This document shows positions 12,588-29,900 of a stretch of DNA of 32,116 nt, piece after piece. Each line of letters begins with the position of its first letter. Positions within the stretch are counted from its first letter, which is position 1. This DNA is from Acidobacteriota bacterium (lineage in GTDB: Bacteria; Acidobacteriota; Vicinamibacteria; Vicinamibacterales; UBA8438): NCBI GenBank assembly GCA_002726085.1, contig PBRZ01000008.1, positions 4,176-36,291 on the forward strand. Direction: 5' to 3'. The notes under the pieces were generated by a model, which was not told the origin of the DNA, did not search any database, and saw nothing but the letters and a program-made list of their open reading frames with translations. The translations under genes and the position numbers were made by a program.

Positions 12588-14159
12588 ATGACGGTTCGCA
12601 CACGTTTCGCACCGAGCCCCACCGGGTATCTCCACATCGGTGGCGTCCGTACGGCGCTGTTCAACTGGCTGTTCGCCCGGCGTCACGGGGGGCAGTTTCT
12701 GTTGCGGATCGACGACACCGACGCCGAGCGGAACATCCAGGAGACGTTGCAGCCCATCCTGGACGGCTTCCGCTGGCTCGGACTCGACTGGGATGAAGGG
12801 CCCGAGGTCGACGGGCCGTATGCGCCGTACTACCAGTCTCAGCGCGGTGACCGGTATCGGGCGGCGATCGACCGACTGCTGGCGAGCGGCGCCGCGTATC
12901 GTGACTACGCGACCACCGACGAGATTCAGGCCGAACGCGAGACCGCGCAGCGCGAGAAACGACGCTTTCTCTACAGTCGACGCTGGATGGCCGAGACCGA
13001 GGCGCAGGCGGCCGCGTTCGAAGCCGAGGGTCGGCGAGCCTTCGTGCGTCTCAAGATGCCCCGCGAGGGTGTCTGCGCCTTTCACGACCTTGTGCGAGGC
13101 GACGTCGAGTTCGAGTGGGCGCTCGAGCAGGACCACGTGGTGCAGCGTGCCGACGGCACCTGTCTCTATCACCTGGCGAGCGCCGTCGACGACCACGACT
13201 TCGAGATTACCCACGTAATCCGGGCAATCGAGCACCTCTCGAACACGCCCCGTCAGATGTTCATCGCCACGGCGCTGGGCTATGCGCTGCCGGCCTTCGC
13301 CCATCTGCCGTATGTGGCCGAGCCGGGGAGCGCCGAGAAGCTCAGCAAGCGGAAGCTGAACAAGTATCTGAAGCACCACGAGTTCAAGAAGATCCATGAC
13401 CACGGCGTCGACATCGCCGCCGCGCTTGGGCTGGAAATCTCTCCAGAGACCTTCAATCCGGTGGTGGTCGATTTCTATCGCGAGGTCGGTTTCGAGCCGG
13501 ACGCGCTGGTGAACTATCTGCTCCTCCTCGGGTGGTCGCTCGACGACCGGACCGAGACCTTTACCCGCGAGCAGATGGTCGAGCACTTCTCGCTGGAGCG
13601 GGTGAATCGCTCGGCGGCCAGCTTCGACCCCCAGAAGCTGCTGGCGTTCCAGGAGCGTCGGATGCAGGCGCTGTCTCTCGATGAACGTGTGGCCCGGACG
13701 CGTCCGTTCCTGGAGCGCGCCAGCCTGGTAGATACGCCGCCGACCGACGCGCAGCGGTCGCGGCTCGGTCAGGTCGTCGCTGCGGCCGGCGAGCGTCTCA
13801 AGGTCGCCGGCGACATCCTCTCCTATCCCGAGTTCTTCCAGGCGGATGCACAGGTCGCGTACGATGAGAAGGCGTTCAACAAACGCGTGAGAAAGGATGG
13901 CGTCGAGCCGCTGCTGCGGCGGTTCCGCGACCGGCTGGCAAACATCGAGCCGTTTGACGCCCAGACGCTGGACCGGACCATGCACCAGTTCGTCGACACG
14001 GAAGGCATCGGCATCGGTCAGATCATCCATGCGGTGCGCGTCGCGGTGACCGGCAAGGCGGTCGGTTTCGGTCTGTTCGAGGGGCTGTCGATCCTGGGTC
14101 GCGAGGCGTGTCTGGCGCGCATCGATTGCACCCTCGAGTGCCTGAAGCCCGAAGCCTGA
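12588..14159 (+). CDS. gltX: Glutamyl-tRNA synthetase
   Basis: The 523-residue class I synthetase attaches glutamate to tRNA-Glu in the cytoplasm. The N-terminus [19 protein letters not shown] contains the HIGH-equivalent HIGG at 16-19 and fixes the start. The KMSKS-equivalent is EKLSKRK at 250-256. The catalytic Rossmann domain is followed by the connective insertion and a bacterial-type C-terminal anticodon-binding domain to about residue 515. The extreme C-terminus (LKPEA) is encoded by the start of a heptamer tandem repeat. glnS follows after 37 bp on the same strand, so the two related synthetases may be co-transcribed. No -35 element is clear. Discriminating versus non-discriminating specificity cannot be judged by eye. 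Confidence 0.95.
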
Positions 14160-14196: not shown

Positions 14197-16089
<1,893 letters not shown>

Positions 16090-25233: not shown

Positions 25234-25237
<4 letters not shown>

Positions 25238-27765
25238 GCTCTCACCTTGGACGCGACCGTCATCAGAGCACGGTCTTGCCGGTATGGAATGACGCGCGCG
25301 CTACGCGCTTCGAGTGCAGCGCGTAGGGTCGAGAGGGCCTCGGTCAGCAGATCGGGCAGCTCGTCGAGCGTCCCGTCGACCTTGACCGTCTGCACCAGCT
25401 CGCCGGTGGCGACGTCGAGCAGGCGCGCCGTGATCCGGAGCCGGCCACCGACATGCTGATACCCGCCGCTGATGAGCCAGGCGGCGCTCTGTCCGGCCGC
25501 CGACTCGAGAGCCACCCCTTCGTCTGGTTCGTCGAGCCGAACAACCGACACGCCGTCAAGCTGCCGCAGGCCGTCGGCCATCGCCGACGCCATGTCTCCG
25601 CCGAGCCTGTCGTCGGCCGGATTGCGCGTGATGTTGGCGAATGGCACGACCATGACGCTTCGTCGCCGCTCCAGGTCGGTCCGGGGGACAGGGTCTCGTT
25701 CGGCGACAGTCCGCGGCGCGGCGCTTGCGTCACCGAGCTCGGCCCTGACGGCTGCCACCACGTTGCTGGTCAGTGTCTCGAGCTCACCGACCGCGCCGTC
25801 CATCTTGAACGAGCGCACCAGCGTGCCACCAGCCACTTCGAGCACTCGCGCAGTGACACGAAGCCGATCGCCACTTCGCTGATACCCGCCACCGACGAGC
25901 CACTGGGCGTTGCGCGCCTCAGCGGTCTCGAGCGCGAGAGCCTCGTCGTCGGTCGTGAGCGTCACGACCCGCCCGGCGTCGGTGTCGGCGAGCGCGGTCC
26001 GTAGCGCCGACGTCATGTCGCCGCCGATCCAGTCATCGGCTGCGTTGCGCGACACGTTGGAGAACGGCAGCACAGCGATCCCCCCGGTTGTCGCGGCCGT
26101 ATCGGTCGGTCGGTCGGCCGCCGGCGCGGCGTCGGGCGCTGTGCGTGGTGCCGCCGCTGGAGCCGCACCGCGGCCCGCGCGCCCTCGTCCGCCGCGCGCC
26201 CCCCGTTCTCTACGGGCGGCGCGACCGCCGCCTGCCGAAGCTCCGGCCGCTCCCGCATCCGCACGGCGAGCTCGGGAGGCATCTTCCACCGCTTCCACCG
26301 CTTCCACCGCGCGGGGGGGCGCCAGCGAGGAGTTTGAAGCCGCTGGTCGAGGCGGCGGTGCAGGAGGCGACGCGCTGGTCACCGGATTCAATGACTCGAT
26401 CTGACGACGCAGCGCGGCAATCTGCTCCTCACGGCTCAGGGTCGGGTCGATGTCGAACTCCGGAGCGGCCCGCTCGCTGGTCGCTCGCTGTTGCTCAGTG
26501 TCGGGAACCGGGTCGGGTTCCGGCGCTGAGGGGGCAGGCGGCGGAGGAGCCTGCGCGTTGCTGGTCATCGCGGTCGCGCGCGCCACCCGGAGGCCGTCGT
26601 CCAGCACGCTCACCACCATGCCCTCGGTCACCGCGTCGAGCGCCGAGACCGAGACCCGCTCTCCTTCGGCGAGCCCGCTCCGTATCAGCACTTCCTCGCG
26701 GGTCGACCGCAGAACCTCCACCTGGCGGTATCGCAGGCGGCTGGAGTCGTCGACGACCAGCACTTGATCGCGCCCACGCAGTGCCGCCCAGGGCAGCACG
26801 ACGACGTCGGTCACGGTCCGTCCCTCGATCTCCGCTTCCACGAACATCCCGGCCGCCAGCGGGGGGCGCGATGGGTTGCTGCCGGGCGCATACGGGTCAC
26901 GCACTTCGGCAACAACGTGCACCATCCGGCTCACCGGGTCGATTTCGCTCTCGGTCCGGACGACACGGCCCTGCCACGTGTGCCGGCGACCGGCGAAGTC
27001 GGCCGACAGCGTGACCGGGGGACCGGTTTGTCGCCCGCCGCCTCGGTAGGACAGCGGAACGTCGACATATGCCAGTTCTTCGTCCGGCAGCGGCAGTCTG
27101 ATCTCCGCCGAGTCGACCGCATAGATCCCCGCAAGGCGGTCGCCCTTGCTGACGAACTGGCCGATATCGACCTCCTTGCTCTGGACACGACCCGCATACG
27201 GCGCCTTGATTTCAGCGCGCTCGAGGTCTCGCGCTCCACGGTCGAGCGCCGCCTCCGCGGCGGCGACGGCGGCCCGGGCTTCCTGGACCTGTGGCTGGCG
27301 AAGCGTCAAAGCGCTCGGGTCGCCGCGGCCGAGCTCCTCCCATTCGCGGCGGGCCACCGCGGCCTCCGCTTCCTCCTGGGCGAGTCGGAGCTCGGCCTGC
27401 GCGAGTTGGGAGCGTGCCGTAATGACCGCCTGCTGGTAGTCGTACGGGTCGATCTTCAGCAGCACGTCTCCGGCTTCGAAGAAGCCACCGACTGCGAACG
27501 ACTGCGCCACCTCGGTGATCGGACCCGAGATCTCGGGCACCAGCTGACTCGAGGTGCGTGGCTGCACGGTGCCCTGACTGGTGACCATCAGGCCAACCGA
27601 TTGGAACTCCACGCGTTGGACGCGCACGCTCGGAGGCTCGAACGGCGGGGCCTGGGTCTCGACCGCCGGTCGGTTCAGATACATGAGGTAGGCCGCCAGG
27701 CTGGCGCCACCCAGCAGGACGACCGGCAACAGGAACCGCAGGATGCGAAGAGAAAGACGTGACAT
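25234..27765 (-). CDS. RND periplasmic adaptor fused to two TolB-N-terminal-like domains
   Basis: The adaptor (about residues 1-397) has a membrane helix, lipoyl/hairpin text (QGTVQPRTSSQLVPEISGP, APYAGRVQSKEVDIGQFVSKGD), an alpha-helical hairpin (about 110-185) and beta-barrel parts, typical of HlyD/AcrA-like adaptors. A Pro/Ala/Arg/Gly linker spans about 400-560. Two tandem domains follow, 562-678 and 702-820, each opening with V(L/V)PF.N..RN..DD..GGDM and closing with GGYQ...LR(V/I)TAR. This pattern matches the TolB-like (COG5616) domain usually seen fused to adenylate cyclases and TPR proteins. 843 residues, twice the usual size. The start could instead be the GTG at 27774. Overlaps the pump gene by 4 bp. 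The function of the extra domains is unknown. Confidence 0.88.
26283..26309. repeat. 9-bp tandem repeat in the adaptor linker
   Basis: CTTCCACCG occurs three times in a row with no change, encoding the AVEAVEAVE stretch in the linker on the minus strand. It marks low-complexity slippage between adaptor and TolB-like domains. Confidence 0.85.
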
Positions 27766-27813: not shown

Positions 27814-29241
27814 CTAGGGCTGAGAAACGGTGACTGGCGCCGCGAGCTCGTCGAACCCGCCGCCGAGTGCCAGATACAGATCCACCCGGTTTTCGAGCCG
27901 CTGGCGGCGCGCGGCAATCAGGTCACCCTCGGCCTGCAGCGCCAGCCGCTGGGATTCGAGCACCGTGATGTAGTCGTCGAGTCCGGTGCGATATCGGTCT
28001 TCGGCCAGGTCTTCGGCGGCGCGCGATTGTTCTACCGAGGTCTCGAGGTGGCGCTCGCGATCGGCCAGAAACTCCTCGGCCGCCAGCGCGGTCTCCACCT
28101 CGGCATATGCGTTGAGCGCCGTGTTCGCGTAGGTTGCCAGCTCTTCGGCCGCTCGTGCCTCAGCGCGGTCGACGCCGGCGCGCAGACGTCCCCCCTGGAA
28201 CACAGGCTGGAGCAGGTTGCCCAAAAGACTCCAGACACCAAAGTCGCCGTCGACCAGGTCGGCGAGTGCGCTCGTGGCGGTGCCGGTGTTGCCGGTCAGG
28301 CTGAGTCTGGGGTACAGCTCTGTTCGTGCGACATGCAAGCGCTGGCTGGCCGCCGCGATTCGGCGTTCGGCCGCGACCAAATCCGGGCGCCGGCTGACCA
28401 GGTCGGCCGGGAGCCCCCCGGGGATCGCAGGTGGCGTGTCGGGCAGCGTCGAGGGCGTCGACCGGGCACCAGAGGCGTATCGACCCAGCAAGACGTCGAG
28501 CTGTCGTGTCGTCGCGTCCAGCTGCTGACGGCGCTGCGCCCGCAGTGCCTCGGCGTTGGCGAGGTTCGACAACGACAGTCGCACATCGAGCGCCGGGCGC
28601 AGCCCCTGCTCGAAGCGTCCTCGGACCTGATCGGACGAGGTGCTGAAGCTGGCGACGCTCGCCTCGGCCAGCCGCAACTGCTGCTCAGCTTCGGCGATGG
28701 CGAACCAGGTTTTCACCGTCTGGCCGGTGATGGAGAGCTGTGCGCCACGCAGGTCGGCCGCGCGGGACTGGAGGTCGGCCAGGGCGGCGCGCGCACCGGA
28801 CCGCAGCCGGCCCCAGAGGTCCGCTTCCCAGGTGGTGTCGACCGAGACGCCGTAGTTGGTGAACACGGTGCTCAACACCTGATTCTCGCTACCTGGAATC
28901 GGAAAGCCGATGAAGTTCTGTTTCCGCCGTGAACCGTTCAGCCCGGCCTGGACGGTCGGCTGGAGGTCCGCGGCGGCGATTCGAGAGTCGGCGGCCGCCT
29001 GCTCCAGACGCGCGGCGGCGGCTTGCAGGTCGTAGTTCTCCTCGAGTGCGGCGAGCACTACATCATCCAACGCGGCGTCGCCGAAATCTCTCCACCACCC
29101 GAAGTCAGGCGCATCGCCGGTGTCGGTGCGCGCCGTCCAGCTCTCTGGCGTCGCCACGTCGAGCGACGGAGGGGCGACCGGCGGCGCCGTGGCGCAACCG
29201 GCGACGAGCGCTGCGATTCCGATCCAGACGCCACGGGTCAT
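27814..29241 (-). CDS. Outer membrane efflux lipoprotein (TolC/OprM/NodT family)
   Basis: The 475-residue protein starts with a lipoprotein signal (MTRGVWIGIAALVAGCATAP, lipobox VAGC, lipid Cys at 16). Two copies of the outer membrane efflux protein repeat follow, with family text GLPADLVSRRPDLVAAERRI, then ARTELYPRLSLTGNTG and RYRTGLDDYITVLESQRLAL. The protein forms the trimeric channel across the outer membrane for the tripartite pump. It overlaps the TetR gene by 4 bp (ATGA) and precedes the adaptor, so all four genes probably form one transcript. Length and motifs match NodT-type factors. Confidence 0.94.
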   Translation of the reverse strand: MTRGVWIGIAALVAGCATAPPVAPPSLDVATPESWTARTDTGDAPDFGWWRDFGDAALDDVVLAALEENYDLQAAAARLEQAAADSRIAAADLQPTVQAGLNGSRRKQNFIGFPIPGSENQVLSTVFTNYGVSVDTTWEADLWGRLRSGARAALADLQSRAADLRGAQLSITGQTVKTWFAIAEAEQQLRLAEASVASFSTSSDQVRGRFEQGLRPALDVRLSLSNLANAEALRAQRRQQLDATTRQLDVLLGRYASGARSTPSTLPDTPPAIPGGLPADLVSRRPDLVAAERRIAAASQRLHVARTELYPRLSLTGNTGTATSALADLVDGDFGVWSLLGNLLQPVFQGGRLRAGVDRAEARAAEELATYANTALNAYAEVETALAAEEFLADRERHLETSVEQSRAAEDLAEDRYRTGLDDYITVLESQRLALQAEGDLIAARRQRLENRVDLYLALGGGFDELAAPVTVSQP

Positions 29242-29900
29242 CGCATCCTCCGACCGGCCCGGACTCCGACCGGCTCCGTCACCGGAGCCGCCGCCATGCC
29301 CGCTGTCGCGAACTGGATGAGCGACTCGAGAATCGCTTCCGGCTCCCGTTCGGCGCGGGCGTCGGTGGCGATGATCGCTTCGCCCCAGGTCATCGTGTAG
29401 GCCATCGACCCGAGCAGAAACAGCAGGCGCCAGTGCACCTCCACCGCGTCGAGCTCAGGCAGGCTGCGTTGGAATGCCGTCGAAAAACGCTGGAAGACGG
29501 TGTCGAATTTTTTGAGGAACTTCGCGCGGAGCTCCTGGTCGACCTCGGCGTGAATGCGACCGACGAGTTTGAGAAACTTCGGGTCGCTCTTGCCCCACTC
29601 ACACCATTTGTCGAACAGCGGCGTCAGAAACGCCCGGACGACCTGATCGGTGGGTACCGTCGTGTTCCCGCGCGCCTCGAGCTCGTCGAGCCGTTCGAGA
29701 CGAGCTCGGTTGACCGGCGCGGTCGTCCGCTCGAGCACCGCAATCAAGAGCGCTTCCTTTGAGCCGAAGTGATAGTTGACGGCCGCCAGGTTCACACATG
29801 CCTCGTTGGTGATATCTCGCATCGAGGTGGTCGGAAAACCGTGGTCGGCGAAGAGCCGCTCGGCCGCGTCGAGAATTCGTTCTTTGGTGTTTGTCGCCAT
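29238..29900 (-). CDS. TetR-family transcriptional regulator of the efflux operon
   Basis: The 220-residue protein has an N-terminal TetR helix-turn-helix (KERILDAAERLFADHGFPTT, then AVNYHFGSKEALL) at residues 6-54. The C-terminal ligand-binding region is helical and resembles the CerR/TetR_C-type group with a WRLLFLLGSMAYTMTWGE stretch. It is the first gene of the operon with the outer membrane factor, adaptor and pump, overlapping the next gene by 4 bp. An AT-rich promoter with a quasi-palindrome lies 50-80 bp upstream, so autorepression with effector-driven release is the likely scheme. This is inference; the effector is unknown. Confidence 0.92.
   Translation of the reverse strand: MATNTKERILDAAERLFADHGFPTTSMRDITNEACVNLAAVNYHFGSKEALLIAVLERTTAPVNRARLERLDELEARGNTTVPTDQVVRAFLTPLFDKWCEWGKSDPKFLKLVGRIHAEVDQELRAKFLKKFDTVFQRFSTAFQRSLPELDAVEVHWRLLFLLGSMAYTMTWGEAIIATDARAEREPEAILESLIQFATAGMAAAPVTEPVGVRAGRRMR

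Follow-up and report, generated by a model that had tools for sequence, protein, structure and literature searches.

A C-terminal tail of TolB-like domains on an RND efflux adaptor in one family of Acidobacteriota

RND adaptors of the AcrA/MexA/MdtA type (TIGR01730) typically stop soon after the membrane-proximal domain, and tripartite pumps are usually drawn as self-contained. C-terminal extra domains on such adaptors are already known from metal pumps: SilB carries a single CusF-like metallochaperone domain at its C-terminus (PMC4446572). An accessory envelope element of another kind is YbjP, a lipoprotein recently found to be a partner of TolC (PMC13082787, PMC13095208).

Several other envelope systems are relevant here. 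In PilQ, AMIN domains attach to peptidoglycan and determine where the pilus machine is localised (PMC5285504). PelC forms a dodecameric lipoprotein ring, with a pore of 3.2 nm, on the outer-membrane barrel of the Pel exporter (PMC12141448). LpoB is an outer-membrane lipoprotein that activates the peptidoglycan synthase PBP1B, and consists of a disordered, Pro-rich linker and a small globular domain that reaches across the periplasm to its partner (PMC4632607).

The locus described here lies in a window of 32,116 nucleotides, the whole stretch of acidobacterial DNA that was analysed. Its adaptor shares with SilB the presence of an extra, putatively periplasmic region at the C-terminus, but the region consists of TolB_N/FlgO-like domains on a long disordered linker, and the pump appears to be of the drug type. 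A SilB-like metallochaperone tail was considered and rejected, the tail fold being alpha/beta and TolB-like, not a CusF-like beta-barrel. YbjP is comparable as an accessory envelope element on a tripartite pump; it is a separate lipoprotein that binds TolC, and the likeness is one of role. No report of a TolB-, FlgO- or AMIN-tailed RND adaptor was found in the open-access literature searched, which is weak evidence of absence, and the TolB-like fusion appears to be undescribed.

The fused adaptor and its operon

An earlier note, made from the DNA letters alone, had described the adaptor of a TetR-controlled tripartite pump with about 843 residues, in which a complete adaptor part is followed by a Pro/Ala/Arg/Gly linker and two TolB-like domains. 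The reading frame, the profile matches and the predicted structures bear out this description (Table 1).

Table 1. Coordinates and supporting evidence for the features discussed
Feature	Position	Strand	Evidence or remarks
TetR-family regulator, first gene of the operon	29238..29900	minus	TetR_N 9.5e-16, TetR_C_30 1.6e-23
Outer membrane factor (OMF), NodT type, 475 aa	27814..29241	minus	outer_NodT 7e-101, OEP 1.6e-43
Fused adaptor gene, 843 aa	25234..27765	minus	start ATG at 27765, stop 25236-25234
Adaptor part, residues 1-389	26599..27765	minus	TIGR01730, AF2 secondary structure, Foldseek AcrA/MexA
Pro/Ala/Arg/Gly linker, disordered, residues 390-558, helix 437-460 inside	26092..26598	minus	pLDDT, length variation, high dN
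Short conserved linker helix, residues 437-460, FDIDPTLSREEQIAALRRQIESLN	26386..26457	minus	motif HMM, AF2
TolB_N/FlgO-like domain 1, residues 560-682 (approx.)	25720..26088	minus	Pfam, AlphaFold, Foldseek
TolB_N/FlgO-like domain 2, residues 701-825 (approx.)	25291..25665	minus	Pfam, AlphaFold, Foldseek
RND permease, 1077 aa	22004..25237	minus	ACR_tran 1.5e-169; NCBIfam RND permease
CBM9/DUF5916 carriers of the module, L044-L052	G000 contigs C13, C22, C35, C55, C59, C67, C127, C151, C154		three in tandem on C13

The frame contains 843 codons without an internal stop. NCBIfam RND_mfp (TIGR01730) matches residues 47-387 (E 2.3e-45; 154.9 bits against a cut-off of 94.9) over positions 1-321 of a 322-position profile, and the adaptor part is therefore complete; Pfam HlyD_3 also matches (1.6e-12). 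In the AF2 model, compared by Foldseek, an N-terminal membrane anchor, barrel-sandwich, alpha-hairpin (helices at 108-145 and 157-182), beta-barrel and membrane-proximal domain are all present, and no Cys lipobox was seen at the N-terminus. Foldseek matches of the full-length model are led by AcrA and MexA, with E-values to 1e-27. The protein thus has every domain expected of an adaptor of this type and is encoded with a permease and an OMF, but it differs in its roughly 450 extra C-terminal residues, the linker and the two TolB-like domains; unfused relatives, like typical adaptors, stop soon after the membrane-proximal domain.

The operon order (TetR, OMF, fused adaptor, RND permease) is also found in relatives. 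Neighbouring genes overlap by 4 bases, the permease start overlapping the adaptor stop, with the exception of a 48-base gap from the OMF to the adaptor. The OMF N-terminus contains a lipobox-like LVAGC. The permease has a DD pair within VVDDAIVV, as drug-type (HAE) pumps have, and no NCBIfam metal-type model matched it above its cut-off. The pump is most likely an intact RND efflux system of the drug type, a type assigned from the permease sequence. In L015 and L101 (G001/G012, a 6.1 Mb chromosome contig) the OMF and the fused adaptor are in place and the permease does not adjoin them; a permease with 72% identity lies by itself at 5.72 Mb, and next to the OMF no TetR was seen. In a sister family (f14, L104-L108) the adaptor and permease are present, and neither a window-like OMF nor a matching TetR was seen in the fetched flanks. 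Elsewhere in the window, 12588-14159 and 14197-15927 are adjoining class I aminoacyl-tRNA synthetase genes, GltX-like and GlnS-like by sequence, and no RNA family of Rfam was found in the window.

The linker is about 170 residues long in the window protein, and its AlphaFold pLDDT is below 50 over residues 391-434 and 461-558 except for single residues. At about 3.4 Angstrom per residue, 170 residues could in principle span the periplasm. Relatives have linkers of 115-275 residues, except for L091, with 35. Within the linker there is an isolated, confidently predicted helix at 445-459, in a block with pLDDT values of 85-92 (AF2). The motif, which in the window reads FDIDPTLSREEQIAALRRQI, is shared by relatives in one half of the family, some of which have it two or three times (E 1e-13 to 1e-18 with an HMM of the motif); the HMM did not detect it in the other half. 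The same helix motif occurs in a standalone gene of genome G021 (L143:2520-3968; L158:5519-6967), which encodes a membrane segment, the motif, a linker and two TolB-like domains without an adaptor part. It follows that the motif travels with the tail and not with the adaptor, and that the tail exists as a unit by itself. At its C-terminus this standalone protein has GEGGMGEVYQP, which resembles the remnant of a kinase P-loop.

Taken by themselves, the last 295 residues of the fused adaptor match Pfam TolB_N (2e-6, 28.3 bits, curated cut-off 22.4) and FlgO (8e-6, 26.1 bits, curated cut-off 22.6). AlphaFold, run with eight aligned tails, predicts the topology b-a-b-a-b-b-b-a twice, with pLDDT mostly 75-93, and the window protein's two copies share 46% identity. 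A full-length run with 23 aligned relatives gave a pTM of 0.43, at which the placement of the domains relative to each other is not confident. A PDB search by tail sequence alone returned nothing significant, so a fold search was needed; in Foldseek the best PDB match was PelC (4.5e-8), TolB matched at about 1e-6, and further matches were HpaA, FlgT, GNA1162 and LpoB (4q6l), all of them periplasmic or outer-membrane-associated proteins. The TolB-N-like fold that had been suspected from sequence patterns is thus predicted confidently in both copies. TolB itself was rejected as an identity for the tail, no C-terminal beta-propeller being found in the ORF, by Pfam or in the model.

Of these structural relatives, PelC is the closest and likewise belongs to an envelope export machine, but it is a free lipoprotein in a 12-mer ring, whereas the tail is part of a fusion and has no lipobox. 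LpoB likewise combines a disordered Pro-rich linker with a small domain from this fold class, and differs in being a separate outer-membrane lipoprotein that binds and activates PBP1B; the window module is fused, again without a lipobox, to an adaptor with an N-terminal inner-membrane anchor. The likeness is one of fold class and linker.

Distribution and conservation of the tail

Scanning the adaptor part against GTDB contigs gave 24 relatives, all seven of which that reach the tail carry the linker and two domains; these are Acidobacteriota, some of them named Vicinamibacterales. An adaptor orthologue is present in 24 of the 28 genomes of the family to which the window belongs. All 17 orthologues with an ORF reaching the tail, the window's included, carry the domains, 15 of them two and two of them (L091 and L094) one, and a separation into two genes, which could have undone the proposed fusion, was not seen among them. 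In the other seven the contig ends before the domains (L057, L063, L064, L075, L098, L099 and L100 are cut inside the linker or tail or shortly ahead of it), and it is probably the GC-rich, repetitive linker that breaks these assemblies.

Beyond the family, a TolB-like tail is absent from all of the roughly 50 orthologues examined in other families of the order and phylum (one record, L135, is masked). They end mostly 2-18 and at most about 50 residues past the position of residue 389, apart from the AMIN cases below. The fetched flanks of the sister family's unfused adaptors contained no standalone TolB-like gene. In the adaptor tree, the fused and cut sequences form one group, with a support of only 0.63, and the unfused L019 is sister to them. 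In the domain tree, a single clade (0.97) holds the adaptor tails and excludes paralogues from the same genome, as expected for one gain. Judging from these trees and counts, the ancestor of a single family of Acidobacteriota most likely acquired the tail.

In both TolB-like domains dN is lower than dS for all pairs with a computable dS (for example, dN 0.31 and dS 0.98 for domain 2 of the window against L014), and the fold residues are kept across deep divergence. The linker has a much higher dN than the domains and changes in length. By these rates, purifying selection acts on the domains, whereas the linker is free to drift.

A somewhat similar arrangement is found in genus g131 of another Acidobacteriota family, where four orthologous adaptors (L139, L140, L142 and L149) have a Pro/Glu/Ala-rich linker and an extra domain at the same position. 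AMIN was above its cut-off in all three g131 tails tested, and L149 is alike by sequence. Close relatives of the AMIN-tailed adaptors end after 12 residues. The AMIN tail is an independent gain of a domain of envelope-binding type at the same point of the adaptor.

Other carriers of the module and possible roles of the tail

The earlier note had named adenylate cyclases and TPR proteins as the usual hosts of the module. In the window genome, surveyed by searches, TPR proteins are indeed among the hosts, as a minority of two kinase-TPR proteins, and the matches scanned included no adenylate cyclase. The list needs widening, because the main hosts are secreted CBM9/DUF5916 proteins: 11 further copies lie at the N-terminus of CBM9_1/DUF5916-type proteins (nine Pfam-scanned, the other two alike by sequence), which are predicted to be secreted and in most of which a stretch resembling a signal peptide can be seen. 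Proteins with DUF5916 are probably barrels of the outer membrane. All of these modules are of the COG5616 type, but the adaptor tail domains form a clade of their own; they are 31-39% identical to the other copies in the genome and 21-24% identical to one kinase-type copy. In the kinase-TPR proteins no hydrophobic segment precedes the module, which may therefore be cytoplasmic there and is not inherently envelope-binding. The N-lobe of one kinase-TolB-TPR protein (L043:2173-4596, G000:C80) was not recovered in frame, with Pfam Pkinase matching only from profile position 132; a frameshift or decay is possible.

We give about an even chance to the reading that the tail, gained in the family's ancestor, is an envelope tether or localisation device on an intact RND pump. 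The adaptor part would assemble with the permease and OMF as in AcrAB-TolC, and the tails would leave the membrane-proximal end and extend into the periplasm, the linker being flexible and its short helix serving, in part of the family, as a docking motif. The one or two globular domains would then hold on to something else in the envelope, be it peptidoglycan, a protein of the outer membrane or a further carrier of the module, and the pump would thereby be localised, anchored or stabilised. We infer that the tail lies in the periplasm, that it tethers and what kind of partner it has. A tether is favoured by the kind of fold, by LpoB as a precedent, by the AMIN tails as a parallel and by the occurrence of the tail as a separate gene; the AMIN parallel applies by analogy only. 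The earlier note's idea of contact with another part of the envelope is plausible, and the AMIN-tailed orthologues and the standalone membrane-anchored tail gene strengthen it. It counts against a tether that no binding partner was identified and that the helix is confined to half of the family. Neither a long reach nor exactly two domains can be required, given the 35-residue linker and single domain of L091 and the single domain of L094.

If the tail is such a tether, built-in tails that vary by lineage, TolB-like here and AMIN elsewhere, would demonstrate that dedicated parts tie pumps to the envelope. Tethered adaptors would complement the TolC partner YbjP and offer ready-made variants with which to ask why a pump has to be anchored, and because the tail is separable as a domain, its role can be tested by deletion.

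It may also be, though we think it rather unlikely, that the module is a shared docking tag, by which the adaptor, the free membrane-anchored protein and the dozen CBM9/DUF5916 proteins meet one partner or each other. Such a tag would mean that a lineage-specific network couples an efflux pump to outer-membrane proteins. Similarly doubtful is a regulatory or sensing role, in which binding of a ligand, or of a signalling protein in the periplasm, to the TolB-like domains alters pump assembly or transport. The kinase-TPR proteins carry the same domain, as expected of a signalling interaction module, and the conserved linker helix could dock on the pump; however, by number the closest relatives are CBM9/DUF5916 proteins, which are secreted and not sensors, no ligand pocket was identified, and the AMIN-tailed relatives suggest envelope binding.

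Less likely again is that a multiplying module ended up on the adaptor and has no important function there. By locus counts the module is strongly expanded in the window's family, with 6-17 loci per genome in 12 of the 13 members sampled (G005 had none at the threshold used) and 0-3 per genome in other families of the order. This abundance, the copy number of one to two and the loose linkers would suit neutral baggage, but the tail is kept in every complete orthologue across the family's genera, and both the dN values and the conserved fold residues argue against it.

A ring of twelve domains, formed by six adaptors with two domains each around or below the OMF, is attractive because dodecameric PelC is the best PDB match, and 15 of the 17 members have the two domains needed; PelC rings also sit on an outer-membrane barrel. 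It is nevertheless very unlikely, as two members have a single domain, the linkers between the two domains vary from 7 to 86 residues, and the PelC pore, at 3.2 nm, would be too narrow to encircle a TolC tube.

Finally, an assembly or frame artefact at 26085-26600 joining the adaptor to a separate TolB-like gene, a concern already raised in the earlier note and nourished by the GC-rich linker and the seven family contigs that end in or near it, can be dismissed with near certainty, as the frame is single and open, conservation at the codon level holds on both sides, and the same fusion is repeated in independent assemblies, one of them the chromosome contig of L015.
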